Source: Oscillospiraceae bacterium
GTDB lineage: Bacteria; Bacillota; Clostridia; Oscillospirales; Ruminococcaceae
Length of the DNA stretch: 64,000 bases
Direction of reading: 5' to 3'
Assembly (NCBI GenBank): GCA_017550285.1
Contig: JAFZPP010000050.1
Span: forward strand, 1 to 64,000
In this document: piece by piece, positions 3,467 through 53,566 of the stretch
Layout: every line of letters starts with the position of its first letter
Position numbering within the stretch: the stretch's first letter is position 1
Position numbers and translations under genes: made by a program
Notes under the pieces: model-generated
What the model saw: only the letters and a program-made list of their open reading frames with translations
Told to the model about the DNA's origin: nothing
Database searches by the model: none

Positions 3467-3680
3467 TGTCCAGCACATTTTCTAAATCCTTTCCGTTGAT
3501 CCAAAGCACTCCGGAAGGCTGCCTGCAAATCATCCCTTGCTCCATCCTCCTTTTCCCAATCTCCCGTTGCACTTTTCGCCATAAGCGGGCAGTGCCCGCC
3601 TGCATTTTATCCCCCCTGCTGCGAAGCAGCAATTTTTTTGCTGTCCCTCCATTGAAATTCACCTGATAATATGGTATAAT
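3467..3680 (+). repeat. Intergenic repeat element, copy C
   Basis: The 346-bp gap before the MFS gene holds no gene. It carries a diverged copy of the dispersed element also seen near 31.3 and 43.1 kb: a gatccaaag segment, a tgcaaatca segment, a pyrimidine-rich tract and ttgcactttt. A palindromic unit gcgggcagtgcccgc (3584-3598) follows, then a small gctgc-gaa-gcagc hairpin with T7, then a full promoter. Confidence 0.65.
3652..3680 (+). promoter_or_regulatory. Sigma-A promoter of the MFS gene
   Basis: TTGAAA, a 17-nt spacer, then TATAAT, 57 nt before the start codon. It lies at the end of the intergenic repeat element; the 11 bases before the -10 box are nearly identical to those in the copy at 43.1 kb. 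Confidence 0.75.
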
Positions 3681-3736
3681 AAAGCCACGGTTTTGAGGTT
3701 AACAGAATAAACAACCGGTGAAAGGTATTTCTGACA

Positions 3737-5080
3737 ATGGATCAAAAACAAAAACTGAACACAGGACAGACAATCCGCGTGGGATTTGCATTTCTTGCAA
3801 TCCTTGCGTTCTGGCAGATGTACAACAATGTCATTCCGCTGATTCTGACAAAGACATTTCACATGGACAAGGGTTTTTCCGGCGTGATTATGGCTGCCGA
3901 CAATGTCCTTGCCCTGTTCCTGCTTCCGCTGTTCGGCGGCTTATCGGACCGCTGCAAGGCGAAAATCGGCAAGCGCAAGCCGTTTATTCTCGGCGGCAGC
4001 ATTGCAGCCGTCTTTCTGATGCTGCTGGTTCCGTTTCTGGACAATGCATACTTCAAAAATCCGAAGACGGGAATTGAAATCGTGTTTGTCTGCGTACTCG
4101 GCTGCATTCTGGTTGCCATGGGTACATACCGCAGTCCGGCGGTCGCGCTGATGCCGGATGTCACACCGAAGCCGCTGCGCAGCAAGGCGAATGCGATCAT
4201 CAATCTGATGGGCGCACTCGGCGGCATCATCTATCTGATTATCGCAAAGATCATGTATCCCTCCGCCAAAACGCAGCATGCGGCGCATGTCGATTATCTG
4301 CCGCTGTTTCTGGTTGTGGCGGGCATTATGATTCTGTCGCTGATCGTGGTAATGTTCTTTGTCAACGAGATACAGTGGAATGCAGAGATGCTTGCCTATG
4401 AAAAGGCGCATCCGGAGGAAAATCTCGCAGAGGAGACTGCCGATCACAAAGAGGTGCTCCCGAAGGATGTGAAAAAAAGCCTGCTCTTTCTGCTCTTTTC
4501 GGTCGCACTGTGGTATATGGGCTACAATGCAATGGAAACATGGTTTACGACCTATGCCGATGCCATGTGGAACATCGGAATCGGCGATGCGTCGCTCGGG
4601 CTGACAGTCGCAACGGGCGGTGCGATCCTCTTTTTCATTCCGTCCGGTATTCTGGCGAGCAGAATCGGACGCAAAAAGACGATCATGGGCGGCATCCTGC
4701 TGCTCTCCGCCTGTTTCTTCGGCGTATTCGCCTATACCTGTGTGTATCATGAATTCCACAGCCTGCTGTATATCCTGTTCTTTCTGGTCGGTACGGCATG
4801 GGCGTTTATCAACGTCAATTCGCTGCCGATGGTGCTTGAGATGTGCAAAGGCTCCGAGGTCGGTCGCTTCACCGGCTTCTATTATTCATTCAGCATGGCG
4901 GCGCAGATCGTGACGCCGGTTTGTGCGGGCGCACTGCTGGAGCATGCCGGCTGCATGACGCTGTTTCCGTATTGTGCGGTGTTTGCGCTGCTGTCATTTG
5001 TGACGATGCTCTTTGTCAGGCACGGTGATACAAAGTTTGAAGCAAGACGCGGACTGGAAGCGTTTGAGGATATGGACTGA
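3737..5080 (+). CDS. MFS transporter, sugar-porter (SLC45/GPH)-like
   Basis: The 447-residue polytopic membrane protein has about 12 hydrophobic segments. The loop after TM2 (GGLSDRCKAKIGKRKPFIL) is the MFS motif A, in the form found in SLC45-like and glycoside-pentoside-hexuronide sugar transporters. A charged central loop (about residues 220-250) separates the two six-helix halves. It probably imports or exports a sugar or glycoside with a cation. The gene is monocistronic: its own promoter lies upstream and a hairpin downstream. The Shine-Dalgarno (gaaagg) is 11 nt from the ATG. The substrate cannot be read from the sequence. Confidence 0.85.
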   Translation: MDQKQKLNTGQTIRVGFAFLAILAFWQMYNNVIPLILTKTFHMDKGFSGVIMAADNVLALFLLPLFGGLSDRCKAKIGKRKPFILGGSIAAVFLMLLVPFLDNAYFKNPKTGIEIVFVCVLGCILVAMGTYRSPAVALMPDVTPKPLRSKANAIINLMGALGGIIYLIIAKIMYPSAKTQHAAHVDYLPLFLVVAGIMILSLIVVMFFVNEIQWNAEMLAYEKAHPEENLAEETADHKEVLPKDVKKSLLFLLFSVALWYMGYNAMETWFTTYADAMWNIGIGDASLGLTVATGGAILFFIPSGILASRIGRKKTIMGGILLLSACFFGVFAYTCVYHEFHSLLYILFFLVGTAWAFINVNSLPMVLEMCKGSEVGRFTGFYYSFSMAAQIVTPVCAGALLEHAGCMTLFPYCAVFALLSFVTMLFVRHGDTKFEARRGLEAFEDMD

Positions 5081-5088
5081 ATCAGAAA

Positions 5089-5134
5089 GCAGAGAACGCA
5101 GACGGTTGTGATGAACTGTCTGCGTTCTGCTGTT
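5089..5134 (+). terminator. Terminator-like hairpin after the MFS gene
   Basis: The stem gcag-ag-aacgcagac pairs with gtctgcgttctgc (2-nt bulge, about 14-nt loop), followed by a short T-poor tail. It is probably a terminator, though the U-tract is weak. Confidence 0.55.
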
Positions 5135-5172
5135 TCGTGTGCATTGATTTTTCAAAAAATTTTCTATGATAA

Positions 5173-5202
5173 CTGTAAGGTTCCGGACTCCGGTTCTGTC
5201 TT
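5173..5202 (+). promoter_or_regulatory. Candidate ECF-type promoter, sigma module 1
   Basis: CTGTAA, 17 nt, CTGTCTT, ending 24 nt before the sigma start codon. The same spacing and -10-like box precede the other two ECF genes (14113-14142 minus strand, 43292-43321). I infer autoregulation. The -10 box does not fit sigma-A. Confidence 0.55.
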
Positions 5203-5226
5203 ATAGAGTGAAAGGGGGCGTGCAGC

Positions 5227-5784
5227 ATGAAAGACAGCGAGATCATTCACCGGCTCGAACAGCGCGACGAATCTGCGCTCAGCGATATTTCGGATGCATA
5301 CGGCAATCTCGGCAGACAGATTGCCATGCGGATTCTCGGCAGCGAATCAGATACCGACGAATGCCTGAATGATGCGCTGCTGCGCATCTGGAACAGCATA
5401 CCGCCTGCAAAGCCGCGGTATCTCAAGGCATATTATTCTGCGGTTGTGCGGAATACGGCACTGAATAAGCATACATACAACACTGCGGAAAAGCGCGGCG
5501 CAGCGGAGGTTTCTCTCGTGCTGGACGAGCTTTCCGAGGTGCTGGCGGACGGGCAGGATGTACAGGCACAGGCGGAGGCTTCCATGCTCGGGGAATGCAT
5601 CCGGCAGTTTCTGCACAGACAGAAGGCAGTACAGCAGAAAATCTTTATGCAGCGGTATTTTTATATGATGACGGGTCCGGAAATCGCGGCAGGGCTCGGT
5701 ATCACGGAAAACCGCGTTACGGTAACGCTGCACCGGATGCGGCAAAAGCTGCGGGAACATCTGGAACAGGAGGGATACTTATGA
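5227..5784 (+). CDS. ECF-type RNA polymerase sigma factor (module 1)
   Basis: The 185 residues are of typical ECF size. Region 2 is at about residues 10-95 (DTDECLNDALLRIWNSIPPAKP, the core-binding and -10-melting part) and region 4 at 120-180 (IFMQRYFYMMTGPEIAAGLGITENRVTVTLHRMRQKL, a helix-turn-helix for the -35). Between them is a variable acidic linker. It is paralogous to the genes at 13520 and 43356. The final codons (EQEGYL) contain AGGAGGG, the Shine-Dalgarno of the next gene, which overlaps by 4 nt (ATGA), so the two are translationally coupled. The regulon is unknown. Confidence 0.92.
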   Translation: MKDSEIIHRLEQRDESALSDISDAYGNLGRQIAMRILGSESDTDECLNDALLRIWNSIPPAKPRYLKAYYSAVVRNTALNKHTYNTAEKRGAAEVSLVLDELSEVLADGQDVQAQAEASMLGECIRQFLHRQKAVQQKIFMQRYFYMMTGPEIAAGLGITENRVTVTLHRMRQKLREHLEQEGYL

Positions 5785-6581
5785 AGCTGACGAAAATGCA
5801 GCTTTTACAGGCAATCGGTCAGGCGGACGAAAAGCTGATCGAACGGACGGCACCGAAGGAATCCGGCAATGCCGCAGCGCAGCCTTTGCTCCGGATACGC
5901 CGCAGAGCATTTGAAATGCTTTCGGTTTGTGCAGCGCTCTGCGTTTTTATCGGCGGCGGACTGCTGATCCGGAATCTGTATCACGCGGATATGGACGATC
6001 CGTCAATCGCCGCTGCAAATGACGAAGCAGCAGCAAGGGCTGCACTGGAGAATTTTCTGGAAGTCTGCAAGAAAGGCGACCGTGAACAGATCATGGAGCT
6101 GTCTCTGATTGAATACATTTGCAACGCGATTGACGATAACCCCGACAGCGCAGCAGAACTGATTGCCTCATACCGTGACAGGTTTGCAATGGTCAGCCGG
6201 TATCAGATTGATACCTGTAAAGATATCACGGAGATACTGGAAAGCTGCCGGCAGAACGAACAGGATCTATGCGAACTGTATGCCTACAGGCTGAAGGAAA
6301 AAGGAAACTATGAAGAGGCAGAAAAGCTCTTCACCGAAAATGCTGCTCTCGATTATTACAACCGTGTGGACAAGGGATATTCATTCTGGGTCCGGCTTTC
6401 CGGCTCTCCTGCCGATCAATGGGCGCAGTATGACATGGACCTCTGTGAGATACAGGTTGTCCGGTATGACGGAAAGTGGTATATACAGCCGGTTGAGTAT
6501 CTGTCCGGCGGAAGACTGAGCGAAGAGGGCAAAGAAAAGCTGGCGCAGTACCGTGCGGCAGATCCGGAATACCGGAAATAA
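5781..6581 (+). CDS. Membrane-anchored sigma partner, putative anti-sigma factor (module 1)
   Basis: The 266-residue protein starts at the ATG overlapping the sigma stop codon. Upstream in-frame codons lie inside the sigma gene and have no ribosome site. The N-terminus MKLTKMQLLQAIGQADEKLIE matches the other two partners (LLxAxG pattern) and is probably the cytoplasmic sigma-binding helix. One TM helix is at about residues 45-65. The extracellular part (about 80-255) begins with an alpha-helical EAAARAALENFLEVCKKGD and ends in a beta-rich WYIQPVEY stretch, resembling NTF2/DUF4878-like folds. There is no zinc-binding ZAS motif. The anti-sigma role is inferred from position and topology, not from a recognised domain. 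Confidence 0.7.
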   Translation: MKLTKMQLLQAIGQADEKLIERTAPKESGNAAAQPLLRIRRRAFEMLSVCAALCVFIGGGLLIRNLYHADMDDPSIAAANDEAAARAALENFLEVCKKGDREQIMELSLIEYICNAIDDNPDSAAELIASYRDRFAMVSRYQIDTCKDITEILESCRQNEQDLCELYAYRLKEKGNYEEAEKLFTENAALDYYNRVDKGYSFWVRLSGSPADQWAQYDMDLCEIQVVRYDGKWYIQPVEYLSGGRLSEEGKEKLAQYRAADPEYRK

Positions 6582-6662
6582 CCTTCTGAAAGGAGAATGA
6601 ACCGGTTTCGCCGAAAGGAACGAAGCCGGTTCTGCGCAGAAAAGCAGCACGCTGCGTCTTCA

Positions 6663-6754
6663 CGGCAGCCGTATCTGCATGATGTACAGTATCTCCGATG
6701 CATGATTCGCGTCGGCGCTGTACGGGAGCAGATGCGGCTGCCGCGCTTTTTTTT
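6663..6754 (+). terminator. Long-armed terminator before pgk
   Basis: A 16-bp stem (6663-6678 with 6728-6743, one G-U) encloses a second tgtacag/ctgtac stem and is followed by T8 (6747-6754). It ends the sigma module transcript. The 279-bp gap otherwise holds only the pgk promoter. Confidence 0.75.
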
Positions 6755-6764
6755 GCTCTGCATA

Positions 6765-6793
6765 TTGCAAAAATCCGGAAAATAGTGTATAAT
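6765..6793 (+). promoter_or_regulatory. pgk promoter
   Basis: TTGCAA, a 17-nt spacer, TATAAT, 67 nt upstream of the pgk start and just after the preceding terminator. Confidence 0.7.
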
Positions 6794-6860
6794 AAGAACG
6801 AATGCGGAAAAATGCCGCATATCTCAAACTCAATACTCTTTTTGAAAGGATGTTTTTATC

Positions 6861-8090: not shown

Positions 8091-8104
8091 TCTGATTATG
8101 ATTT

Positions 8105-30778: not shown

Positions 30779-31318
30779 ATGAAACAAACCTATGAAGCCG
30801 GAATGCATGTCAGATACGGCGGAACAGGCATCTGTCTGATCGACCGGATCGAGGAGGTGCCGTATCCGGGACAGCAGCCGATGCGTCTTTGCTATGTGCT
30901 CAAGCCGGTTCGCAATTCCGGCATGGAGGTCTCGGTGCCGCTGGATAATGAAACGCTCTGCGCAAAGATGCAGCCGCTGCGCACACCCGAGGAAATTGAC
31001 CGGATGCTGGACGAAGCGGTGCAGGATACGCCGCCGACGTGGATCGAGGACCGGAAGCAGCGCAGCACGGAATTCAAGCGGATTCTTGCAGGCGGCGATG
31101 CGCCGACGCTGCTGCGGATGATTCACGGGATTCTGCGGCAGAAGGCGATTCTGAAAGCGGAAGGCAAACATCTGACCGCAATGGATGACAATGCGCGAAA
31201 GGATGCAGCGCGGATGCTGGATGAGGAATTCGGCTTCTCGCTCGGCATGAAGCCGGAGGAAGCGAGCAGATATATTTATGACAAACTGAGCGGGCAGTGC
31301 CCACCTCCGTTGCTCTAA
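30779..31318 (+). CDS. CarD-family transcription regulator
   Basis: The 179 residues carry an N-terminal CarD/TRCF RNA-polymerase-interacting domain (MHVRYGGTGICLIDRIEEVPYPGQQPMRLCYVLKP, VSVPLDN) and a C-terminal helical domain (LLRMIHGILRQKAILKAEGKHLTAMDDNARKDAARMLDEEFGFSLGM). CarD proteins bind the RNAP beta subunit and stabilise open promoter complexes. The last 10 residues (SGQCPPPLL and stop) are encoded by the first 31-nt unit of an intergenic repeat, so the native C-terminus may have been replaced. Confidence 0.88.
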   Translation: MKQTYEAGMHVRYGGTGICLIDRIEEVPYPGQQPMRLCYVLKPVRNSGMEVSVPLDNETLCAKMQPLRTPEEIDRMLDEAVQDTPPTWIEDRKQRSTEFKRILAGGDAPTLLRMIHGILRQKAILKAEGKHLTAMDDNARKDAARMLDEEFGFSLGMKPEEASRYIYDKLSGQCPPPLL

Positions 31319-31456
31319 AGGCGGGCAGCCCCCGCTGGCATTGATCTAAAGTTCTCAGGATGCGCATTTGCAAATCAGTTCGAACGCTCTCCTTCCTTCT
31401 TCCTCCTTTTTTCTCATTTTTTCATTGCACTTTTTACGATAATATGCTATTATAAT
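31290..31456 (+). repeat. Intergenic repeat element, copy A (two 31-nt units plus promoter)
   Basis: Two adjacent 31-nt units (31290-31320, 31321-31351) each begin gcgggcag and end in ctaaag. They are followed by ttctcagg, a tttgcaaatcag segment, a pyrimidine-rich tract and TTGCAC-N17-TATTAT (31425-31453). The whole is homologous, in reverse orientation, to 43062-43224. Unit 1 supplies the stop codon of carD. Confidence 0.85.
31425..31453 (+). promoter_or_regulatory. Outward promoter of repeat copy A
   Basis: TTGCAC, 17 nt, TATTAT. It points into the left end of the mobile element, where no plus-strand gene starts for 4 kb. It may have driven surE before the element inserted. Confidence 0.5.
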
Positions 31457-31567
31457 CGCGGCTTCTCCTAATTTCTCCATAAGGCTCAAAAAGCACGCAA
31501 AACCGCAGATATCAGTATTTATCAAGAATCAACTCTTGCTCAATTAGATGCTTTTTCCTGCATCATA

Positions 31568-31577
31568 GTTGACCAAA
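31568..31577 (+). other. Candidate left attachment core
   Basis: The decamer gttgaccaaa recurs at 39928-39937 just after the integrase gene, in the same orientation. The repeat is short; it is an inferred element boundary. Confidence 0.3.
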
Positions 31578-31620
31578 AGTTGCCCAAATTACAACAAGAC
31601 AGGCGAATGTATCAAGTGTA

Positions 31621-31658
31621 ACCCCCCATCAACAGATTACAGTCTGTTAGTGGGGGGT
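31621..31658. terminator. Strong hairpin near the element's left end
   Basis: accccccatcaacaga pairs with tctgttagtggggggt (16 bp, two mismatches, 6-nt loop). It lies about 100 nt beyond the stop of the minus-strand secreted-protein gene. The U-tract is weak, so termination is likely but not certain. The rest of the 437-bp gap holds the repeat element and the element junction and no gene. Confidence 0.5.
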
Positions 31659-31755
31659 TGCTATTAGATATACCTGAAAGCCGGTTCGTGTACAATAAAA
31701 TACTGACTGGCTTTTGGCTTCATGAACAATACAGATGTAGTTTAATCAAAACAAA

Positions 31756-33522
31756 TCATGATAATAATCTGCGTTTTAATAATGTCAAATCAACGGCATT
31801 TACTCTCTTATCTCCCGAAATATCAGAAAGCTGCAGTTGAATGTCAGAAAGCGCTTCCTCTGTTGTCAAGTAAGTACTAAGCAACACGGCATCAGTCCCT
31901 AAAACTTCACCGTTAAGATTGATGTCTCCCATTATTCTACACTGTTCCGCTTGATATAAGTAAGCGTTTAGATTACTGCGGACATCACTGACGCTAACAA
32001 TACCACCATCTTTTTCATCATAACTCTCAAGTCCATACTGTGGAATACAGTATTCAAATGATTCACTATTGTAATATAGATAGGAATCTTCATTCAATGC
32101 GTCTGGATAGTTTGAATCCCATACAAGAATTCGCACATCATAGCTTTTGTTATTTATTTTCCATGCGCCCAATTCTTGACCATAGCAAATCACTTTATGA
32201 GCACCGGTCTGTGTATTGAAAGTCAGTAGCAGAGGGGACTCTCCTTCCGGAACAAATTGTATAGTAGTGTTTGATGTGTCAGGAACATCCAAGTCAGGAG
32301 AATCATTCAATTCAAGAAGCTCTTCCAAAATTTCTTTGGCATCTTCTATTATTTGGACTTTCTCAGCATTTTCAGCCGTATTTGGCAGTACATAGAAATC
32401 GCCCTCTTTAGCGTGAACAAGTGTGCCGTTATTCCTTATAAACAGCGCCGAGCTTTCCACATATGATAAAGGTGGTATAAAACCTTTTAGCGACGAAGTC
32501 TTGGCATGAGTAATAAGATATGCTAAAGCTACCGCTGTTCCTGATGCAGTCGCAGTAAGTACTACGGTACCTATAGCAACTTTTCTATTATTTTGATTTC
32601 CGCCTTGTAGTTGTGTAATAGAAGGTTTACTGCCATTATCGCTTATGTTGTCGCTGGAACCGGTATTACTGTTGCCTCCTCCGGGAAGAAGCCACCACGG
32701 AAACAACAGCGGTATAACAGAGTCGCCGCTTTTATGAGAATTATCATTGCTGTTTTCCGAATCTTGTGATGAGGTATTATCTCCGGTATTTTCATTAGAA
32801 CCTGCTTCTGCTTCGGAATTTGCTTTTTCATCTTTTTGCTTTTTCTCTTTAGTACTGCTACGAATAAAATCATATATAATAAGACCATTTCCAAGGACTT
32901 CATATGATACATTATACGTTACATATTCTAACCATTCGCCATAACCATTTGAACAAGAAAGAGTAAGATTAAAACTGAAAGATGAGTCATGTATGCTGCC
33001 AGGTAACAGACTGCCGTTCCTATAATTAGTTGAGGAATTAACATATTTACTCAGTTGATTCAAGCCCTTTGTTTGATTTATATCTCTATACGACGGTGGT
33101 TTTACTTCCCATATATATGTAAGTGAATCTAAGTCTGATCTGTAGCTTATATCTGCAAATCCATATGCTCCATCGCTATACACGATTTTCAATTCGCCAT
33201 CATCAACTATGTTTGCTGGATTGTTCCAAATGTTGTTTTGTACTCTTTTGTGTATTTCATTATACGGAAGCTTGTCATAATTCTTTAATACCCACCAATT
33301 ATTACGCTGACTTTTGATATCAACATTGATATTGGGTTCATCTAAAACGTCATCCGCTGCTTCCAAATCGTCAAATTGAGTTCCGATTATAGGATCTTTT
33401 TCAAGCAACGTTGTTTGTGTAGAACTTGCTGCACAAACAGATTGAAAACATAATTCTGGAATAACCATCAGAATAGTAAGAAATACGCATATTATTCTTT
33501 TAAAGATATTTATCCTTTTCAT
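31756..33522 (-). CDS. Secreted dockerin protein with a nuclease-like motif
   Basis: The 588 residues begin with a signal peptide (1-32, KRIICVFLTILMVIP ... VCAAS). Residues about 108-165 contain GFADIS, then WEVKPP and QLSKYV. The D124-x14-E139-x-K141 spacing fits the PD-(D/E)xK nuclease core seen in toxin REase domains; this is a motif match by eye. An Asn/Ser-rich linker follows (225-315), then a hydrophobic helix (316-338), an about 190-residue domain, and two C-terminal dockerin repeats (533-551 and 567-587). The ATG at 33522 follows AGAGAG; a TTG 12 codons upstream overlaps the previous gene. It is AT-rich, unlike the flanks. A toxin role is a hypothesis. Confidence 0.65.
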   Translation of the reverse strand: MKRINIFKRIICVFLTILMVIPELCFQSVCAASSTQTTLLEKDPIIGTQFDDLEAADDVLDEPNINVDIKSQRNNWWVLKNYDKLPYNEIHKRVQNNIWNNPANIVDDGELKIVYSDGAYGFADISYRSDLDSLTYIWEVKPPSYRDINQTKGLNQLSKYVNSSTNYRNGSLLPGSIHDSSFSFNLTLSCSNGYGEWLEYVTYNVSYEVLGNGLIIYDFIRSSTKEKKQKDEKANSEAEAGSNENTGDNTSSQDSENSNDNSHKSGDSVIPLLFPWWLLPGGGNSNTGSSDNISDNGSKPSITQLQGGNQNNRKVAIGTVVLTATASGTAVALAYLITHAKTSSLKGFIPPLSYVESSALFIRNNGTLVHAKEGDFYVLPNTAENAEKVQIIEDAKEILEELLELNDSPDLDVPDTSNTTIQFVPEGESPLLLTFNTQTGAHKVICYGQELGAWKINNKSYDVRILVWDSNYPDALNEDSYLYYNSESFEYCIPQYGLESYDEKDGGIVSVSDVRSNLNAYLYQAEQCRIMGDINLNGEVLGTDAVLLSTYLTTEEALSDIQLQLSDISGDKRVNAVDLTLLKRRLLS

Positions 33523-33547
33523 ATGATACTCTCTTTCGTTTTTATTT

Positions 33548-34924
33548 TTATTCAGCAATTTTTTTCAGAATTTGCAGATTATGGGTTGTATTGCGTTCTG
33601 CATTTGAACGTGATCTATCAGAAACAAGAAACGGTTGCAATTTTTCCCTGATAGGGTTTACAATATCTTCTGCTGTACAATTTGGTTCTTGTTTAAAGTG
33701 TATTTTGCAGAATTCATGTGAGACTTTTATTTTGTCAGCATATGCATTAAGCACGGCGTTTACGTCTTTTGCTTTTAAAAACAAGCATGATTCATTATAG
33801 TAGTGAAAATCATAATACGGGTCTGTTTCATCAAATATTGTCAGGCATTCAGGCGCAAAAAAGAACAAAAAGCGTATCGCTGAATCAGCATCAGACACTT
33901 TGTCCAGTTCCGGCATTAACCATGTCATTGCGTTTTCCAGCGCTTTTTTGAAACAGGCTTGCACTTCATCCGGATGCTCCATATCGGGAATCGGACACCT
34001 GCTCATTGCAATTTCTTGTACTCTGCTGTAATCACTCGGTAAAGCCCTGCGATAATAGAATCCAGTATGCATCAGCCAATGTCCGACTTCCGATTTCAAA
34101 TCTTCCGAAAAATCCAGTTCTTTCCGATAGATCGTAGCAATTCCACCAAGTACGCCAAATGTACCACTGAAGCCATCCTTTATGATTGCGATCACATGAA
34201 TAAATTCATCATTTACAATTCGGATGAAATAAGGTGATTTATTTTTGACTTCCCGAAATCCGAGTGGTTTGAGCGCTTCTGCAAAATAATGCTTGATTGC
34301 TGCATTGAAAGAAGCCTTTTTTTTGTTTTGAGTCGTATCTTTTTTGAAAAACAAAAACACTGTCTGCTCATCTTCCGCAGCTTCATCAGCAGAGAACAGT
34401 ATATTTTGATCGTCCATTCCGATCATGGGCGCAAGCTCTTTCAGGCTGTCCTCCACAAAAGTATTGTCTTCGTTTTGTATGTCTGAAAACTGTTCCCATG
34501 TAGTGCCGCTGCTCAAAAATGGCTTCCAGAGCTCTTCAGACGGCTGCGGAATATCATCTCCGAAATAGTCATCTGCGCGCCCTATGATCAGCGAATCAGC
34601 CCTTTTTCCGCTTTTATCATACAAATCAAGTGTTGCACAGTCGCTGTCAATTACTGTCGTGTTGATACATACTGTGTGCAGCATTTTTGCAATTCTGCCG
34701 GTATCAGTTTGTGCAAACTGGTTTCCTTGCTCATAGGCGTCCGAAGTGACAGTCACCCATTTGCAGCCATCCGCAAATCTTAAAATATAAGAAATCTCGC
34801 TTTCATCGCTGTTGCAGATTGTATAACCTTCTTTCTTCATTTTTTGGCAGAATAGATTGGTAAATTGGCTAGGGAGAGAGATGATTGGCGTATAGATCTG
34901 TGTGGAAGAGAAAAACATTCCCAT
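33548..34924 (-). CDS. Cytoplasmic cargo protein of unknown function (possible partner of the dockerin protein)
   Basis: The 458 residues have no signal peptide or TM segment. The N-terminal part (1-150) is alpha/beta (FTNLFCQKMKKEGYTICN, WVTVTSDAYEQGN). From 185 on there is a second domain (FNAAIKHYFAEALKPLGFREVKNKSPYFIRIVNDEFIHVIAIIKDG). Proteins beginning 'F..al...L..lGF.k....f.R' include uncharacterised DUFs and some immunity-type families, but I cannot assign one. AGGAGG precedes the ATG, and a consensus promoter lies upstream. It ends 25 nt before the secreted dockerin gene and is co-transcribed with it, so an immunity-like role is possible but only inferred. Confidence 0.6.
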   Translation of the reverse strand: MGMFFSSTQIYTPIISLPSQFTNLFCQKMKKEGYTICNSDESEISYILRFADGCKWVTVTSDAYEQGNQFAQTDTGRIAKMLHTVCINTTVIDSDCATLDLYDKSGKRADSLIIGRADDYFGDDIPQPSEELWKPFLSSGTTWEQFSDIQNEDNTFVEDSLKELAPMIGMDDQNILFSADEAAEDEQTVFLFFKKDTTQNKKKASFNAAIKHYFAEALKPLGFREVKNKSPYFIRIVNDEFIHVIAIIKDGFSGTFGVLGGIATIYRKELDFSEDLKSEVGHWLMHTGFYYRRALPSDYSRVQEIAMSRCPIPDMEHPDEVQACFKKALENAMTWLMPELDKVSDADSAIRFLFFFAPECLTIFDETDPYYDFHYYNESCLFLKAKDVNAVLNAYADKIKVSHEFCKIHFKQEPNCTAEDIVNPIREKLQPFLVSDRSRSNAERNTTHNLQILKKIAE

Positions 34925-35016
34925 ATAAAGCCTCCTGTGTATTATTTGAATAATTGTTTGTTGTAGTTATATCATTTAAGAAGTTTGCATTCAAACGCCT
35001 TATTCTACTATGCTTG

Positions 35017-35045
35017 ATTATATCATTCCTGTGAACTGTTGTCAA
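35017..35045 (-). promoter_or_regulatory. Consensus promoter of the cargo pair
   Basis: On the minus strand, TTGACA, 17 nt, TATAAT, a perfect sigma-A consensus. A second pair TTGAAT-N17-TATAAC lies nearer the gene. Confidence 0.75.
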
Positions 35046-35192
35046 TGGACATTCCGGAGGATTATAGCTTTATGTATTCGTTTGCACCTATGATTTTAGA
35101 CTTATAAAATGAATCACTCCATAGCGTAGGAACTCAACATCAATAAGAATCGTGATATTATCCTGAAGAAAGAGCCGAAATAGTTTAGTCTG

Positions 35193-35325
35193 TTATGCAA
35201 CCCTACAAACTTTTCTCGAACATGAAAAAATCGTCCGTTTTGTGAGGATATATACGAGAACGCCAAACAGATTGCTCAATCCGAGACAGTGACAACAAGC
35301 CCGGATTATGCATCCCTACAAACTT
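35193..35325 (+). repeat. Two 20-bp direct repeats in a gene-free stretch
   Basis: ttatgcaaccctacaaactt (35193-35212) recurs at 35306-35325 with one change, 113 bp apart. The gap 34925-35546 otherwise has promoters for the minus-strand cargo, no convincing gene and no tRNA. Confidence 0.6.
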
Positions 35326-35546
35326 GTTTTGCAAACTGGAATAAAGTGCTGTTTTCTGTGATACCTCATGAGGGGTTCCACTGATTTCAGCTTTGGGACA
35401 TATGACAGCGCAATGCACAATACAATGCCGGCAGTTTTGTGCAGTCAGACAAAGTTTCGGAAACAGACTATTATTTTTCCGCGTTTCTGTAGGGCTGTAT
35501 GAGAGGCGGTTCTCTCAAATCAATCAAAATCTAGGAGGTCATCAAA

Positions 35547-35822
35547 ATGAAAAGAAGCCAGCAAGAAGTCATCGACCGCATCCTCGATCTTCTGACCGAG
35601 CTCGTCGATGACACGCCCGCCAATCAGCAGGCAGAAACCAAGCCCGTGGAAATGCTCACGATCAAGGAATGCACCGAGGCAGTCAAGGGCGTTTCCGAGC
35701 ATACCATCCGCAAACTGGTCGCGCAGGGGCGAGTCCGTTACATCCGTACCGGTGAGGGTGAGCGCGGCAAAATCCTGATCTGCAAACAGTCACTGCTTGA
35801 CTATCTGGGAGGTGGAAAATAA
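35547..35822 (+). CDS. Excisionase-like DNA-binding protein
   Basis: The 91 residues have a coil-like N-terminus (SQQEVIDRILDLLTELVDD) and a winged-helix MerR/excisionase domain (LTIKECTEAVKGVSEHTIRKLVAQGRVRYIRTGEGERGKILICKQSLLDYL). Such proteins bend att DNA for integrase-driven excision. AGGAGG is upstream of the ATG. It is 3 kb from the integrase. Confidence 0.8.
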   Translation: MKRSQQEVIDRILDLLTELVDDTPANQQAETKPVEMLTIKECTEAVKGVSEHTIRKLVAQGRVRYIRTGEGERGKILICKQSLLDYLGGGK

Positions 35823-35872
35823 CAAAGCACCTGCGACGGCAGATGCTTCATGTGTATTCAGTTGGGTAAGAA

Positions 35873-36697
35873 TTACGATAGTGTTATTCCGCAGCTCTCG
35901 TTATCTTTAACATACTGATTGATGATAAACTCTGCTGCTTCTTGTCCGCTTTCAAAATTCCACCGAATGGGGAATCCCTCTCGCTCACGCCGATGTGCGT
36001 AAGTCAGATGATAAATACGCCATAGTTCAGTTCCGTCTTTCCTCACCGACTGGAACAGCATATCATCATTCGCTTCGCATTTGTATATTGCATACACCTG
36101 ACCGTCAAAAAACGGATCATCGTCACCGAGTTCAAGCCTCAGTTCGGGAACAAAGACTGCTTCGCGTTTCTCTTCGGGCAGCATGAACCAGTTGAAATCT
36201 TCACCGAATTTATCTACACAGCGTTCCATGATTTCTTCCATTGACATATCGGCTGTGATCTTGATGCGGTTCTGTTCACGCAGGGAATCAGAAGCACCTT
36301 TTCCGAAATACCGTTCAAAATAATCATCGAACAGCAGTATTCCGGAACGCCGCACCATGACAGGATTGTCGCCGTTTGGCTGATAGAGGAGATCGCAGTT
36401 GAGGCGGTAAACTATCTGTTTCAGCACATATATCAACTCGTCAGTTGAATTGCAATCAGAATATGAAAAATATCGGAAGGAAAGAGAATGATTCACACGA
36501 ACACCATAGTCCTCTTCCAACCATTGCATCGTTCTTTCACTCAGCGAGAGAACAGATACCTTGATATGCTCGTTTATAAAACAGCTTTTGTTTGCAAACT
36601 CATTCGGGCTGGATGGGTATAACATCTGCATCAGCTCGATAAGCTCGGATGAACTATTAGCGTAAAGTCTGATATAATTTTCGACCGACATTTTCAT
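35873..36697 (-). CDS. Cargo protein of unknown function
   Basis: The 274 residues have no signal or TM segment. The N-terminus (ENYIRLYANSSSELIELMQMLYP) is helical and the C-terminal part (FFDGQVYAIYKCEANDDMLFQSVRKDGTELWRIYHLTY, FESGQEAAEFIINQYV) is beta-rich. I do not recognise it. The start is ATG 36697 after GGGGG; ATG two codons later is possible. A good promoter is upstream. It lies inside the mobile element, facing away from the mobilisation genes. Confidence 0.6.
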   Translation of the reverse strand: MKMSVENYIRLYANSSSELIELMQMLYPSSPNEFANKSCFINEHIKVSVLSLSERTMQWLEEDYGVRVNHSLSFRYFSYSDCNSTDELIYVLKQIVYRLNCDLLYQPNGDNPVMVRRSGILLFDDYFERYFGKGASDSLREQNRIKITADMSMEEIMERCVDKFGEDFNWFMLPEEKREAVFVPELRLELGDDDPFFDGQVYAIYKCEANDDMLFQSVRKDGTELWRIYHLTYAHRREREGFPIRWNFESGQEAAEFIINQYVKDNESCGITLS

Positions 36698-36721
36698 ATC
36701 ACCCCCACTGTTTACGATTCG

Positions 36722-36750
36722 ATTATATCATAGGTGCAGCAAAAAGTCAA
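36722..36750 (-). promoter_or_regulatory. Promoter of the 35873-36697 gene
   Basis: On the minus strand, TTGACT, 17 nt, TATAAT, 24 nt before the start codon. Confidence 0.7.
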
Positions 36751-36807
36751 ACCGAATACGATTCCAAATATCAAGTTGTATGCGATTCAAGGGTAAAACG
36801 CGCAAAT

Positions 36808-36960
36808 CCGGAGTATCCGTATACATTTGATTTTGATGGGTGTAGCAAGCAGAGAAAGAAACCGTATACTCCGGTTCTTTTCGGCGGCGGATATGGCGTA
36901 CCCCCTCGCCGAAGCGTTAAGATGCTATCAGCCCCTTAACGCATACCCCTGAGCAAATCA
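36808..36960 (+). other. Candidate transfer origin (oriT) region
   Basis: The 308-bp gap before mobC holds a ccggagtat/atactccgg inverted repeat (36808-36816 and 36866-36874) and a perfect gcgttaag/cttaacgc repeat (36914-36921, 36935-36942) followed by catacccctg, which loosely resembles nic regions of MOBP relaxases. The position upstream of mobC and the relaxase fits an oriT. The exact nic site is not determined. Confidence 0.45.
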
Positions 36961-37005
36961 ATCGCACAGGAACGACCACCAAAACTAACAGAAAGGAGAA
37001 TTTCC

Positions 37006-37344
37006 ATGAGAAAAACCAAACAGATCAAGCGCAAGGAGATCATTTTCGAGCCGGATGAATGGGCGCGGATTGAAGCAGAGGCCGCAAAGTTAAATCTTAG
37101 AACAAGCGAGTATATCCGCCGCATGGTGGTGAACGGTCAAATTATTCAGATGGATGTTTCCGGTATAACCCCACTCGTCAACGCGATGCGGACGATCAAC
37201 AACAATGTGAACCAGATCGCACGGAAGGCAAATGAAACGCACAGCATTTATGCGGAGGACATCGAAATTTTGAAAGGAGGTCTCAGCGAGATATGCCGAT
37301 TGTTAAGTCAGTGCCTGTCAGAACTACAGTGCAAAAAAGCCTAG
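37006..37344 (+). CDS. mobC: MobC-family mobilisation protein
   Basis: The 112 residues hold a ribbon-helix-helix start (KRKEIIFEPDEWARIEAEAAKLNLRTSEYIRRMVVNG) and the MobC signature NAMRTINNNVNQIARKANE. It assists the relaxase at oriT. AAAGGAG is upstream. It overlaps the relaxase gene by 52 nt. Confidence 0.88.
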   Translation: MRKTKQIKRKEIIFEPDEWARIEAEAAKLNLRTSEYIRRMVVNGQIIQMDVSGITPLVNAMRTINNNVNQIARKANETHSIYAEDIEILKGGLSEICRLLSQCLSELQCKKA

Positions 37345-38522
37345 CCTATATCCTGAATCCGGACAAGACTGAAGGGCTGTTATACACAGCCTCGATCAAC
37401 TGCATGACCGATGCCGCCGACGCTTATCTGAATATGAAGATGGTTTATGAGCTGTACAGCGGACACAGATTTGACGAACCCCTCCCGAAAACAGGGAAAG
37501 GGCGCGTGAAGGTGATTCATTACATCCAGTCATTTTCGCCGGATGAGAACATTACCCCGGAACAGGCACACCGCATTGCAAAAGCATTTGCGCGAAAGAC
37601 ATTCGGGGATGACTGTCAGGTCGTAATCGCAACGCATACCGATAAGCATCATATCCATACCCACTTCATTCTGAACACCTATTCAATCACGGGAAGACGC
37701 TTCTATGACAACTGGCACTCTCGCAGCCATATCCGGGAATACTCTGACCGTGTCTGTCAGGCGTTTGGCATTCAGCCGAATGAAAACAACGGGAAGGCAA
37801 AATCGACCAGCTATGCAGAATGGTACCACCGCGACAGGGGTACATCATGGAAAGATCAAATCCGGCAGGAGCTTGACCGTCTGGTGCCGGAAGTGAAGAA
37901 TCTCGAAGAATTATTCGGAATCATGGAGGAGCGTGGTTTCACTGTCCGGCGCGGCAGGCACCTGATGCTGAAAGCCCCGAATCAAAAGCGGGCGATCCGG
38001 CTGGACAATCTCGGTGACCTCTATTCGCTGGATTGTTTGTATATCCGCATTTTGTATCATACCGGTGAACTGCAAAAGAGTGAATACCTCTCCGATTGGC
38101 AAAAAGCCTATGGTTTGGTACTTGGGGAAACCGTTTCACTGAAACGAGCAAACACGAATCGTTCGCAATCGCCGGATATGCCGGGTATTCACAGGCTTGC
38201 AGCACAGCTTGCAGTCATCAACCGGGAGGGAATCCATTCGCTCGGAGAGGTCGAAGGGAAGTTACAGGCATACAAGGCGGAATGTATTCGTATTGCCGGT
38301 GAGATCGAAAGGCTTGACCACGCTGCGGATGATTTTGAAGAACAGCTTTCCGGACTACGGACACAATATGAAAAAGCGTATCAGTACTATGATGTATACA
38401 GCGATATTGTGCAGACCTACCGGTCATTTTCGCAGGGTGACTATATCTCCAAGCTCGTCCAGGAAGAACGCAAGCAGCTGGATGCCGAAAAGCCGCACAG
38501 GAAGAAGAATGTGTCGCTTTGA
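37293..38522 (+). CDS. Relaxase (MobA/VirD2-like, MOBP type)
   Basis: The 409 residues nick and lead the transferred strand. Motif I with the likely catalytic Tyr is SLAYILNPDKT (Tyr19), and the metal-binding HHIHTHFILN motif III is at 119-128. The C-terminal part is helical and coiled (ELDRLVPEVKNLEELFGIMEE, LDHAADDFEEQLSGLRTQYEKAYQYY). The start has AAAGGAGG inside mobC, so translation is coupled. No helicase or primase domain is fused. Confidence 0.9.
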   Translation: MPIVKSVPVRTTVQKSLAYILNPDKTEGLLYTASINCMTDAADAYLNMKMVYELYSGHRFDEPLPKTGKGRVKVIHYIQSFSPDENITPEQAHRIAKAFARKTFGDDCQVVIATHTDKHHIHTHFILNTYSITGRRFYDNWHSRSHIREYSDRVCQAFGIQPNENNGKAKSTSYAEWYHRDRGTSWKDQIRQELDRLVPEVKNLEELFGIMEERGFTVRRGRHLMLKAPNQKRAIRLDNLGDLYSLDCLYIRILYHTGELQKSEYLSDWQKAYGLVLGETVSLKRANTNRSQSPDMPGIHRLAAQLAVINREGIHSLGEVEGKLQAYKAECIRIAGEIERLDHAADDFEEQLSGLRTQYEKAYQYYDVYSDIVQTYRSFSQGDYISKLVQEERKQLDAEKPHRKKNVSL

Positions 38523-38555
38523 CGGCGCGGGCGGCGGGCGGAGATTAGAAAGTTA

Positions 38556-38584
38556 TTGACTTTAAACTACGAAAGTGGTATAAT
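38556..38584 (+). promoter_or_regulatory. Integrase promoter
   Basis: TTGACT, 17 nt, TATAAT, 37 nt before the 16-residue leader frame and 84 nt before the integrase. Confidence 0.75.
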
Positions 38585-38620
38585 GACAGTGATATATTCG
38601 CTGTCGGAAACGGAGGTTAT

Positions 38621-38671
38621 ATGAAACAGACAGTGAACACCGTCACAATCAGAAAGGTGGCGGTAAAATGA
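38621..38671 (+). CDS. 16-residue leader peptide before the integrase
   Basis: MKQTVNTVTIRKVAVK, preceded by GGAGG. Its TGA overlaps the integrase ATG (aaaATGA), so the integrase start appears translationally coupled to it. The sequence is Lys/Val/Thr-rich without attenuation-type codon runs. It may be a short coupling leader; function unknown. Confidence 0.5.
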   Translation: MKQTVNTVTIRKVAVK

Positions 38672-39861
38672 ATATTCAGGAACGAAGAAACAAGGACGGC
38701 AAGATTACATCTTACCGCATCCGTGTGTTCGACCATCGAGACACGCAGACCTATAGGCAGGTATTCCGCACATTGTCCATCAAGTATGATCCCACCAAGT
38801 CTGAAGCGTGGAACAGGAAAAATGCCGAGAAGCAGGGTACGATCTTTGAAAAGCAGATCGAGGAGCATACCATCAGCGATTCGCACATCACCTTTGACAG
38901 CTACTGCGAGTATGCGATCGGCATGAAAGAGCAGGCAGGGCTTTCGCCATCAACAATCTACAGCTATTCCGGATACCGAAAGCAAATTGCACCGTACATC
39001 GGGCATATCCAGTTGAAGCAGCTAACCCCTGCCACGATTAACAAGGCATATTCGGATATGCTCGCCGCGGGTGTATCCAAGGCGACGGTGTATCAGTATC
39101 ACCTGTTTATTCATTCGATGCTCGCAATGGCATTCAAAGAGAATCTGATTCCGCGCAACTACGCAAGTGCAGCAATGCCGCCGAAACGTGACCAGAAGGA
39201 AGTGAAGGCACTCAGCGAGGACGAAATCAATGCATTCTTTACAGCCTTGTATGCGGATAGCAAGCACTATATGTATCAGGTGCTGTTTAGCCTGATGCTT
39301 ACTACAGGATGCAGGATTGGTGAAATCTGTGCGCTGACATGGGACAACATCGACTTTGATACGAATCGCATTCACATCTGTCGACATTATGTCTGCTGCA
39401 AGAATGGCTCACGCATTATAGACGGATGCAAGACGAATGCCGGTGAACGTTGGCTCACAATGGACAAGGGTATAATGGATATGCTCAGGGAATACCGTGT
39501 GTTTTATCTCAAGAAAGCGGAGAGTTTCGGCAGCAAGTGGGATTATGAAGCAAATGCTGTGTTCTACGCTGAGAAGCGATACGGCGGTTTTATCAATCCA
39601 GACACAGTAAGGGCATTTCTGCAACGCTTCACTAGGCAACACGGTTTGCCGAGGATTCACCCGCACATGTTTCGTCATACATCTGTCAGCCTCCAGTTGC
39701 AGGCGGGAATCAGCATTGCAGATGCAGCAAAACGAGCAGGACATGCCCGACCGGATGTAACCCTGCGAATCTACTCTCATGCGTTGAAAAAGAACGATCT
39801 GCACTGCTGCGAGGCTGTCACGAAAGTTATGCCGAAAATGCCAAAGCGCGATGCAGGCTGA
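38668..39861 (+). CDS. Tyrosine recombinase (Tn916/phage-type integrase)
   Basis: The 397 residues hold an N-terminal arm-binding domain (1-70, ERRNKDGKITSYRIRVFDHRD), a SAM-like core-binding domain (75-165) and the catalytic domain with Arg216 (TTGCRIGEICALTW), HMFRH (His333, Arg336), His359 (AGHARPDVT) and Tyr369 (TLRIYSHA). All key residues are present, so it should be active. It catalyses insertion and excision of the element. The element's right end lies about 70 bp downstream. Confidence 0.95.
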   Translation: MNIQERRNKDGKITSYRIRVFDHRDTQTYRQVFRTLSIKYDPTKSEAWNRKNAEKQGTIFEKQIEEHTISDSHITFDSYCEYAIGMKEQAGLSPSTIYSYSGYRKQIAPYIGHIQLKQLTPATINKAYSDMLAAGVSKATVYQYHLFIHSMLAMAFKENLIPRNYASAAMPPKRDQKEVKALSEDEINAFFTALYADSKHYMYQVLFSLMLTTGCRIGEICALTWDNIDFDTNRIHICRHYVCCKNGSRIIDGCKTNAGERWLTMDKGIMDMLREYRVFYLKKAESFGSKWDYEANAVFYAEKRYGGFINPDTVRAFLQRFTRQHGLPRIHPHMFRHTSVSLQLQAGISIADAAKRAGHARPDVTLRIYSHALKKNDLHCCEAVTKVMPKMPKRDAG

Positions 39862-39927
39862 AAGATACGAAAAGCTGCGATAACTCTATCTTCCGGTATC
39901 GTTCAGCAGCGTAAAAATTGACCGATT

Positions 39928-39937
39928 GTTGACCAAA
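39928..39937 (+). other. Candidate right attachment core
   Basis: gttgaccaaa, identical to 31568-31577, lies 67 nt after the integrase stop. Confidence 0.3.
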
Positions 39938-39991
39938 GCACAGAAATGAACGCTGAAGCCACCCGAAAAGAGCGTATTTTCGCGGAAAGGC

Positions 39992-40116
39992 TTGAAATTT
40001 GCGGCTTTATATGCTATAAGCGGGTAGAACCCGCCGCCGTTTTCGCTCCCATGCAGTACATTATGTTATTTTTTCGCTGCTCTCCCATTGAAATTTGCAG
40101 CTTAATATGCTATAAT
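39992..40116 (+). repeat. Intergenic repeat copy D with tandem promoter boxes
   Basis: TTGAAA-N17-TATAAG (39992-40020) is followed by the palindrome gcgggtagaacccgc (40020-40034), a 50-nt stretch, and a second TTGAAA-N17-TATAAT (40088-40116). The two promoter copies share 20 of 29 or more bases. The same layout (promoter relic, palindrome, promoter) is seen before the MFS gene at 3.6 kb. Confidence 0.7.
40088..40116 (+). promoter_or_regulatory. surE promoter
   Basis: TTGAAA, 17 nt, TATAAT with an extended TGC; 33 nt before the surE start. A duplicate with TATAAG lies 96 nt upstream. Confidence 0.75.
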
Positions 40117-40149
40117 AAGGCATCCGCAATCTATGGAGGAGAGAATCCG

Positions 40150-40866
40150 ATGCGCAGAATACTAATCACGAATGATGACGGCATCACCGCAGACGGTCTG
40201 ATTCGTCTGGCGGCTGCCGCACAGAAATACGGCGAGGTCTGGGTTGTTGCACCGGACGCACAGCGCAGTGCCGCCTCGCACAGCATCACCCTGCATTCCC
40301 ATATCGACGTTTATCCGCATGATTTTCCGGTCGCCGGCGTGCATGCATTTTCTTGCAGCGGCACACCGGGCGACTGCGTCCGCGTCGGCAGCCTGAATGT
40401 CATGCCGCAGAAGCCGGACGCCGTGCTCTCCGGCATCAATTACGGCTACAATGTTGCGTCGGATATCCAGTATTCCGCAACAGCAGGCGGCGCATTTGAA
40501 GCAGCATTCCAAGGGTATACGGCGATCTCGCTCTCCGAGCAGGCATGTCCCTGCCACGAGGTCACGGATGCATTTCTCGATCAGATTCTCGCGGAGCTGA
40601 TTGACCGGCACCCCGATACCGGTCAGATCTGGAATGTCAATTTCCCGGGCTGTCCGCTCGCCGAATGCAAAGGGATTCTCAGAGACCGCAGGGTCTCGCG
40701 CGGCATGTTCTACCGCGACCATTACAATGTAACGGCGAAGCTGCCGGACGGCGGCATCCGGTATATGATTGAAGGCGACTACAATGAGGATGCCGAACCG
40801 GAGACAGATTTCCGTGCCGTGGTCGAGAATTATATTTCAATCGGCATTGCAAACAATATCGGATAA
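40150..40866 (+). CDS. surE: 5'/3'-nucleotidase SurE
   Basis: The 238 residues dephosphorylate nucleoside monophosphates with a divalent metal. Signatures are ILITNDDGITADGL (metal-binding DD), VVAPDAQRSAASHSITLH, SGTPGDCVRVG and LSGINYGYNVASDIQYSATAGGAFEAAFQG. The ATG at 40150 has GGAGGAG upstream; upstream in-frame ATGs have none. A bidirectional terminator follows. Confidence 0.95.
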   Translation: MRRILITNDDGITADGLIRLAAAAQKYGEVWVVAPDAQRSAASHSITLHSHIDVYPHDFPVAGVHAFSCSGTPGDCVRVGSLNVMPQKPDAVLSGINYGYNVASDIQYSATAGGAFEAAFQGYTAISLSEQACPCHEVTDAFLDQILAELIDRHPDTGQIWNVNFPGCPLAECKGILRDRRVSRGMFYRDHYNVTAKLPDGGIRYMIEGDYNEDAEPETDFRAVVENYISIGIANNIG

Positions 40867-43061: not shown

Positions 43062-43090
43062 ATTATACCATATTATCACAGAAAGTGCAA
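43062..43090 (-). promoter_or_regulatory. Promoter of the zinc-ribbon gene (within repeat copy B)
   Basis: On the minus strand, TTGCAC, 17 nt, TATAAT, 35 nt before the start codon. Confidence 0.75.
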
Positions 43091-43224
43091 TGGGAAAATG
43101 AGAAAAAGAAGGAAAGAGGAAGGAGCATGTTAGGACTGATTTGCAAATGCATATCCTGAGAACTTTAGATCAATGCCCGCGTGGGCTCCCCGCCTTTAGA
43201 TCATTTCGTGCAGGCATTGCCTGC
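43062..43224 (-). repeat. Intergenic repeat element, copy B (two 31-nt units plus promoter)
   Basis: On the minus strand the 31-nt units are 43224-43194 and 43193-43163, each ending gatctaaag. They are followed by ttctcaggat, tttgcaaatcag, a pyrimidine-rich tract and a promoter, in the same order as copy A at 31.3 kb. Confidence 0.85.
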
Positions 43225-52757: not shown

Positions 52758-52776
52758 AAAGGGGAGGGTGTTTGAT

Positions 52777-53535
52777 ATGCTTTACAAGGAAGATCAGGTC
52801 ATTGCGACCAGACCGAAGAAGATCGTTTACCGCGACGGTGACACGGTTGTCAAGCTGTTCAGCGCGGATTATTCCAAGGCATCCGTACTGAATGAGGCGC
52901 TGAATCAGGCGCGCGTTGAGGAGACCGATCTGCATATTCCGAAGATCATCGAAGTATTCAAGAACGGTGAGCAGTGGGCAATCCGCTCCGATTATATCGA
53001 GGGCAAAACGCTCCAGCAGCTCATGGACGAAAATCCGGAGAAGAAGGACGAATATCTCAAGCAGTTTGTCGAGCTGCAAATGCTGATTCATACCAAGCGC
53101 GCACCGCTCCTGACAAAGCTCAAGGATAAGATGCACCGCAAGATCAGCGACAGCAAATTTGAGGCAACCGTCCGCTTCGAGCTGCATACCCGTCTGGAGG
53201 GCATGCCGAAGCACAAGAAGGTCTGCCACGGCGATTTCAACCCCTCGAATGTGATCATCACGCCGGACGGCACGCCCTATATCATTGACTGGGCACATGC
53301 CACGCAGGGCAATGCATCTGCGGATGTGGCGCGCACATATCTCTATATGATGCTGAACGGGCAGGAGGATCTTGCAAAGGAATATCTCCGGCTGTTCTGC
53401 AAGATGAGCGACACGGCGCTGCAATATGTGCAGAACTGGATGCCGATTGTTGCGGCATCGCAGTCGGTCAAGGAAAACAGCGAGGATGATTTCGAGCTGC
53501 TCTCACGCTGGGTAAACGTCGTGGATTATGTCTGA
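52777..53535 (+). CDS. APH/choline-kinase-like phosphotransferase
   Basis: The 252 residues show a kinase fold: VYRDGDTVVKLF (Lys), CHGDFNPSNVIIT (Brenner motif HxDxxxxN) and YIIDWAHAT (DxD-type metal site). The start is ATG 52777, nine nt after GGGGAGG; a GTG three codons earlier overlaps the ribosome site. It follows adhE by 19 nt. The substrate is unknown; a metabolite kinase is as likely as an aminoglycoside kinase. Confidence 0.8.
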   Translation: MLYKEDQVIATRPKKIVYRDGDTVVKLFSADYSKASVLNEALNQARVEETDLHIPKIIEVFKNGEQWAIRSDYIEGKTLQQLMDENPEKKDEYLKQFVELQMLIHTKRAPLLTKLKDKMHRKISDSKFEATVRFELHTRLEGMPKHKKVCHGDFNPSNVIITPDGTPYIIDWAHATQGNASADVARTYLYMMLNGQEDLAKEYLRLFCKMSDTALQYVQNWMPIVAASQSVKENSEDDFELLSRWVNVVDYV

Positions 53536-53566
53536 GCGGGGAGCCCCCGCCGGCGTTTTTCTAAAG
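53536..53566 (+). repeat. Single 31-nt repeat unit, copy E
   Basis: It starts on the base after the kinase stop, begins gcggggagcccccgcc and ends ctaaag, followed by ttctg, like unit 2 of copies A and B. Confidence 0.75.

Follow-up and report, generated by a model that had tools for sequence, protein, structure and literature searches.

Repetitive extragenic palindromic (REP) sequences, bacterial interspersed mosaic elements (BIMEs), REP doublets forming hairpins (REPINs) and miniature inverted-repeat transposable elements (MITEs) are short, non-coding and palindromic, and integron gene cassettes are small units that lie head to tail at a recombination core beside a hairpin. Mobile promoters as an idea are already in print: Matus-Garcia, Nijveen and van Passel reportedly described in 2012 putative mobile promoters, promoter-sized sequences repeated upstream of unrelated genes. 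According to passages of PMC3942029, the DDE elements TnGBS, ISLre2 and ISKra4 carry a transposase and inverted repeats and land 15-17 bp ahead of the -35 box. The targets mentioned in passages of a review of integrative mobilizable elements (IMEs) are the ends of genes, nic sites of oriT, and sites that are AT-rich or of low specificity (PMC5704250). Here we describe a family of dispersed promoter cassettes, and an 8.6-kb IME among them, that sit in promoter -10 boxes of a 64,000-nt stretch from a Ruminococcus-like gut bacterium of the Oscillospiraceae (contig JAFZPP010000050.1, positions 1 to 64,000; hereafter the window).

The unit of spread is a non-coding cassette of ~95-103 bp that runs from a GC palindrome to TTG-N17-TATAA and lies between two TRTGNTATAA extended -10 cores. 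We consider it probable that these cassettes sit inside resident -10 boxes, bring a -35 placed 17 bp before the second core to give a predicted new downstream promoter, and move by site-specific recombination between matching cores, the 31-nt repeats first noticed in the window being, on this same probable account, ends and remnants of the cassette family. Like the putative mobile promoters, as these have been reported, the cassettes are promoter-sized repeats upstream of unrelated genes, but they differ in having a defined unit, a fixed -10 attachment site, tandem stacking and a filled/empty pair of alleles. Their stacking resembles that of integron cassettes, although they carry no gene and insert at scattered promoters instead of one platform. 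They are short, non-coding and palindromic as REP, BIME, REPIN and MITE sequences are, and are set apart from these by the lack of end inverted repeats, the fixed -10 insertion point and a matched core base. With TnGBS, ISLre2 and ISKra4, as far as passages of PMC3942029 describe them, they share insertion at a fixed place relative to sigma-A promoters; unlike those elements, they insert in the -10 itself, supply the -35, and possess neither inverted repeats nor a gene. The IME of the window is similar to tyrosine-integrase IMEs in its integrase, relaxase, MobC/NikA protein and direct att repeats, and differs from them in its target, a promoter -10 box, which goes unnamed in the relevant passages of PMC5704250. 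A limited search of the open-access literature by title and start of abstract, with subscription journals mostly outside it, found no description of -10-box cassettes.

To define the unit we parsed 139 distinct core-palindrome junctions from fetched loci, of which 129 had a second core downstream, 126 of them under a limit of 170 bp. The lengths fall at 94-97 bp (93/126) and 102-103 bp (17/126), with a few near 134 and 160, and at these lengths the 110 cassettes of the two classes could not hold a gene of typical size. Only cassettes of the 102-103-bp class have the 31-nt unit as their left end; those at window positions 3585 and 40020 are of the 94-97-bp class. In 136 of 141 cassettes, a set chosen without regard to a -35, a TTG lies precisely 17 bp upstream of TATAA. 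TTG is also seen at a spacer of 10 in 23 cassettes and of 12 in one, and at no other spacer from 10 to 25. The base after the right core is T, giving TATAAT, in 113 of these 141, and the remaining 28 start like another cassette (GCGGG 14, CCGGG 8, GCCGG 4, GGCGG 1, CCGGA 1). Nearly all terminal cassettes with both flanks long enough (53/57) are followed within 250 nt by a same-strand open reading frame (ORF) with a ribosome-site-like motif, at a median of 42 nt, and a divergent ORF starts on the opposite side in 19/57. Within the spacer, TTT past the -35 and ATAA ahead of TRTG are better conserved in 118 cassettes than at 268 other TTG-N20-TATAAT sites in these loci; some of the latter may be cassettes that went unrecognised. 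The palindrome is maintained: both changes fall in the arms in 88 of the 98 two-mismatch junction rows listed, and the palindrome survives in 83 of the 88, where simple arithmetic gives about 1/27 for a random second change, the related sequences counted not being independent. More than one arm pair occurs (CCGGG, GCCGG, GCGCG), and since the set was found with palindrome patterns, units without a palindrome are under-counted.

Evidence for movement comes in the first place from the 96-bp cassette that precedes surE (40020-40115, forward strand; ATG at 40150, SurE match), which recurs at 95-99% identity in four other contexts of its own genome (contigs C14, C45 and C1, and C32 at 97%; G, C and L numbers are our labels for genomes, contigs and loci). 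These copies have sharp borders, similarity being lost at the edges. To their left lie the IME end (window), diverged ends of the 102-103-bp class (C14, C45, C32) or another promoter (C1), and to their right the leaders of three different genes or a further cassette, and at C32 a left end of IME type. Farther upstream, a 94%-similar stretch of the type of element A described below is common to C14 and C32, so this pair may have been copied as a block. In loci L018 and L023 a 103-bp cassette is identical over the 93 bases before the core, with unrelated promoters on the left and different flanks on the right. Near-identical (95-100%) cassettes therefore stand at unlinked sites with different downstream sequences, the feature by which putative mobile promoters are recognised.

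One site was found in both states. The empty allele, G021:C24, reads CATTGCGTTTTCCGGCATGATGTGTTATAATAAATAACAGCC, and in the filled allele, G025:C48, a like promoter runs to TGTGTTATAA and is followed by two 96-bp cassettes, each ending TGTGTTATAA, and then by TAAATAACAGCC. The right flanks are 86% identical over 962 bp, and the left match stops exactly at TATAA. The gene that follows G025:C71 was compared among 29 orthologues: G025 and G019 have three cores each before it and G020 has two, 15 further orthologues have one TTG-N20-TATAA, and 11 have no such site. At a second gene the inserts ahead of it differ between four species (own genome, G012 with the IME, G010 and G026). The family thus varies in position between species, and it is not confined to the copies of the window. 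A non-mobile alternative, in which a common regulator keeps the operator-promoters of a large regulon alike and conserved, would agree with sequences that lie upstream of many genes in the same orientation and with exact spacing. We regard it as extremely improbable, as it is strongly contradicted by the filled/empty pair, and the differing inserts at one gene in four species and the loss of similarity at the borders speak against it as well.

The core itself is informative about how the cassettes move. Base N of TRTGNTATAA is the same on both sides in 20 of 23 cassettes, where 6.4 are expected (0 of 100,000 shuffles); the set comprises non-IME cassettes whose left flank is unlike their own right end, after removal of rows with less than 60 nt upstream, duplicates and rows resembling IME ends. 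In an earlier and smaller set that retained IME ends, agreement was seen in 20/25, with 8.5 expected. Cassette pairs at least 93% identical and located at different sites share the left N in 16/16 and the right N in 14/16, pairs of 88-93% identity in 14/21 and 17/21, and pairs of 75-88% at near the chance value of 0.31, with some cassettes entering more than one pair in this test. Over short times, then, N moves together with the cassette, and landing sites carry the matching base. A check for target duplications had been suggested along with the original description of the repeats, and its outcome is divided: the core is indeed repeated on both sides of the cassette, but N follows the cassette lineage and not each target. 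Target duplication was our own first reading of the core repeat, and it is countered by the N agreement among close copies at different sites. Because N agrees between the two sides and is shared by close copies at different sites, core-matched recombination is favoured over target duplication.

Terminal inverted repeats were not found in 140 distinct cassettes, whose ends match at a mean of 4.7 of 18 positions against 5.4 when shuffled, the best reaching 9. Taken together with the N pattern, this fits strand exchange that needs identity in the overlap, or short-homology template switching, better than a duplication copied from the target. The proposal in the sequence-only reading that the repeats are MITE- or REP-like accordingly finds no support: inverted repeats are missing from the ends, copies of one lineage keep their core base instead of taking it from each target, and the 31-nt unit forms the left end of something larger. 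A MITE whose DDE transposase favours -10 boxes and duplicates a 6-8 bp target (NTATAA/TGNTATAA) would be consistent with the direct core repeats flanking each insert and with the filled/empty pair, and DDE elements that target promoters do exist, according to passages of PMC3942029. We nevertheless judge it improbable given the cassette ends just described, and given that under this scheme close copies at different sites should differ in N, yet they agree.

Two further explanations centre on the hairpin. In one, the 31-nt hairpin would be moved in single-stranded form by a Y1 (RAYT/IS200) transposase in the manner of REP/REPIN sequences, with the promoters as passengers. A hairpin at one end, paired changes in its arms and the many lone 31-nt units (in the own genome 43 of the 68, the majority, have no promoter motif within 150 nt) would suit this idea. 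It is very doubtful all the same, considering that 96-bp cassettes occur at several sites without the ATTGATCTAAAG half and that whole cassettes have sharp borders; moreover the hairpin begins at the junction, leaving no space for the guide sequence that this model calls for, and the N match is left unexplained. In the other, the cassettes would spread free of any recombinase, by template switching or recombination over short homology. A fork held up at the hairpin past TATAA would let the new strand re-pair at another TGNTATAA promoter, copy the cassette and switch back. The matched core base beside the junction with a weaker match three bases upstream, the palindrome kept through paired changes (83/88), the tandem arrays of like units, and the longer block shared by the C14 and C32 arrays (the 94%-similar stretch plus the 96-bp cassette) all go in its direction. 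On the other hand, each insertion would need two precise switches, and a 103-bp cassette occurs at two sites with unrelated left flanks, the two copies showing no difference up to the core. We hold template switching to be possible, if on the unlikely side.

The distribution of the family was surveyed in the own genome (3,406,773 bases, 50 contigs) and in relatives. With up to 3 mismatches the 31-nt pattern GCGGG-N5-CCCGC-N9-TCTAAAG matches 73 times in the 3.41 Mb of the own genome against 12 for the reversed pattern, and the junction TRTGNTATAA followed by the palindrome (up to 2 mismatches) is present in 22/30 congeners, with 261 matches over all genomes, where the reversed control gives 2. 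These counts, together with the predicted promoter, bear out the description of a dispersed, promoter-carrying family of many copies. In the own genome 25/68 31-nt units are followed by TTG-N20-TATAA within 150 nt, and 10/68 have it on the other side in the opposite direction, the background being 1.4% of random 150-nt window pieces. At up to 1 mismatch a stricter form of the 31-nt pattern was found in 12 of 100 sampled genomes, all among the 30 genus members, and all reversed controls were zero. Beyond the genus, a related pattern occurs in 3 of 197 genomes of the wider family, namely the own genome and two from another genus with one match each, and one of the latter (L413) reads as a clear 95-bp-class cassette. 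A 181-bp stretch of element A has 59 matches at E<=10 in the own genome, itself included. In the GTDB genome collection 73 stretches were found, under titles of Ruminococcus, Oscillospiraceae, Clostridiales or Clostridia metagenome-assembled genomes. The 31-nt pattern had no match in viral contigs, the 96-bp cassette (query window 40009-40118) none in the plasmid and phage collections, and Rfam none within the window at gathering scores.

All the copies that had been named in the window are present. On the left, a decayed A-type element (3493-3584, forward), recognised by comparison with the A and B modules, contains a 31-nt-unit remnant, TGCAAATC, a pyrimidine tract, TTGCAC and a -10 worn down to CATAA; it is followed by a 95-bp cassette (3585-3679, forward; palindrome through TATGGTATAA, TTG-N20-TATAAT at 3652) upstream of the MFS gene at 3737-5080 (MFS_1 match). 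Element A has two forward 31-nt units (31290-31320 and 31321-31351) and an A-type promoter module (31352-31450, forward; TTGCAC at 31425) whose core TATGCTAT at 31443-31450 is attL of the IME. Its first unit sits in the final codons of a CarD-like gene frame (ORF 30779-31318) and supplies the TAA stop; orthologues have other ends. Element B, on the reverse strand, is made up of an A-type promoter module (43062-43162) and two 31-nt units (43163-43193, and 43194-43224 with the diverged palindrome GCAGG-CCTGC), upstream of the zinc-ribbon/DUF5067 gene at 43027-42326 (reverse). The -10 of element B is also present in G012:C272, there with a different upstream region; this locus was rejected as a clean empty site, its two flanks being on separate contigs. 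The sequence-only reading had put the promoter before the MFS, zinc-ribbon and surE genes, and a cassette or module does precede each, but since the -10 of element A is split by the 8.6-kb IME, its predicted promoter points into the IME and surE would be served by the cassette at 40020-40115. Copy D (53536-53566, forward), which had been credited with the promoter half, is instead a lone 31-nt unit immediately 3' of a TGA stop, with a T-run past the hairpin, and appears to be terminator-like. Among the other repeats, in L048, L003, L081 and L122 the 31-nt unit is followed by a third class of module, which ends in AGAATTT or the like and not in TATAA; short half-unit copies of the palindrome (GCGGGCAGCGCCCGCGGGTATTT) lie head to tail ahead of a full unit at L048:1440-1500; a second dispersed repeat of ~170 bp at L375:1174-1345 matches many places in many congeners; and dense short repeats spaced 9-42 nt apart occupy the left end of the window (1-600).

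By its gene content and ends, the segment at 31451-40017 (forward) is an IME, integrated in a -10 core and with a right end of TTGAAA-N17-TATAA. It encodes an HTH_17 protein that is excisionase-like by size and place, with a match below the Pfam cut-off (35547-35822), a MobC/NikA-like mobilization protein (37006-37344), a MobA/VirD2-like relaxase (37293-38522) and a tyrosine integrase (38668-39861; Phage_integrase, E 2e-23), all on the forward strand, and its direct att repeats TATGCTAT at 31443-31450 and 40010-40017 (attR, forward) have ends conserved in other insertions. Its cargo includes a 599-aa dockerin protein (31756-33555, reverse) and a 457-aa protein without a Pfam match (33548-34921, reverse). 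The left end, TATGCTAT followed by TATAAT, recurs in G003:C34 and at two other own-genome loci; an alternative left end near 35.2 kb, at the arm-like repeat GCAWCCCTACAAACTT, was rejected because G003:C34 places it at 31.45 kb. Among 17 distinct right-end junctions (34 rows, each junction found with two queries, which missed two further ends in G025), 16 have TTG-N17-TATAA, and the adjoining sequence is a cassette-type palindrome in 9, host sequence starting with T in 7, and neither in 1. An IME-free allele is provided by G021:C39, where a cassette (core TATGCCATAA) precedes the gene that in G025:C9 has the IME, the two being 95.5% identical from the cassette onward; the left end of the G025:C9 copy is off its contig. 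As neighbours of attL and attR, element A and the surE cassette probably formed one array before the IME arrived, and we found no relative carrying the joined array. Elsewhere in the own genome, a 31-nt unit adjoins a truncated IME-family integrase gene at GATGCAGCCAA (L035:1500; C29:3172).

A mechanism may be outlined as follows. The cassette would insert exactly after TATAA at the target core TGNTATAAT of a resident promoter, turning the old -10 into TATAA-G/C that runs into a GC hairpin at the would-be transcription start, by which the old promoter is presumably weakened. The new -35, at 17 bp, and the second -10, TATAAT, would take over, so that expression likely passes to the predicted cassette promoter, and arrays would form by repeated insertion or duplication at the same core. 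The candidate recombinase, a part of the scheme we put forward with more reserve, would be a tyrosine integrase of the class of the resident IME, an element that has the same core at its ends and likewise brings a -35 at 17 bp with its right end. An IME-family integrase (at least 70% identity, fragments counted) is found in 13/30 congeners, all 13 with cassettes, and 9 of the 17 others also have cassettes (one-sided probability about 0.004, worked out by hand with relatedness ignored). Among six distant integrases (25-33% identity) examined for a downstream core, only L393 (G029) has TTG-N20-TATAAT, 384 nt away.

Several observations weigh against core-matched recombination driven by such an enzyme. 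Nine cassette-bearing genomes, including the cassette-rich G029, G023 and G005, yielded no close relative of the IME integrase (the assemblies are drafts of 58-98% completeness); IME right-end DNA is present in G019 and G022, which belong to the nine. The right ends of IME and cassettes share no clear motif outside the promoter (TTTTCG upstream of the -35 is found in 7/19 IME ends, 17/130 cassettes and 12/289 other promoters), and the cassette palindrome is absent from the IME left end. With ends not shared and co-occurrence not strict, the link between IME and cassettes rests on the shared core and geometry. Position R of the core is not clearly matched (18/23 against 14.6 expected). In the filled/empty pair the left match beside the core is just 55 bp at 82%, and G021 has ~2 kb extra before the shared upstream gene, itself 94% identical. 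Only 4/68 own-genome 31-nt units have TGNTATAA directly to their left, and the leftmost unit of G025:C71 is likewise without a -10 core ahead of it, so that many left cores have been lost or never existed. Finally, the likely movement and the predicted promoter use are both read from assembled genomes.

With these points in mind we offer, as a tentative proposal that we place a little short of even, a new class of mobile DNA whose sole cargo is a promoter: ~95-bp cassettes that would use the -10 hexamer as attachment site, bring a fresh -35, stack, and be moved by tyrosine integrases of IMEs with the same -10 core, the promoters of the host itself thereby forming a recombination site shared across the genus. 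If true, this would explain how an IME can integrate ahead of working genes with expression kept. The question of how mobile promoters move becomes directly testable, since the DNA to be moved is 96 bp long, its target is short and varies at one base, and a candidate for the enzyme can be named. Should the cassettes act as promoters, they would represent a natural rewiring of expression by insertion at one exact spot of a promoter, with the gene left unbroken.

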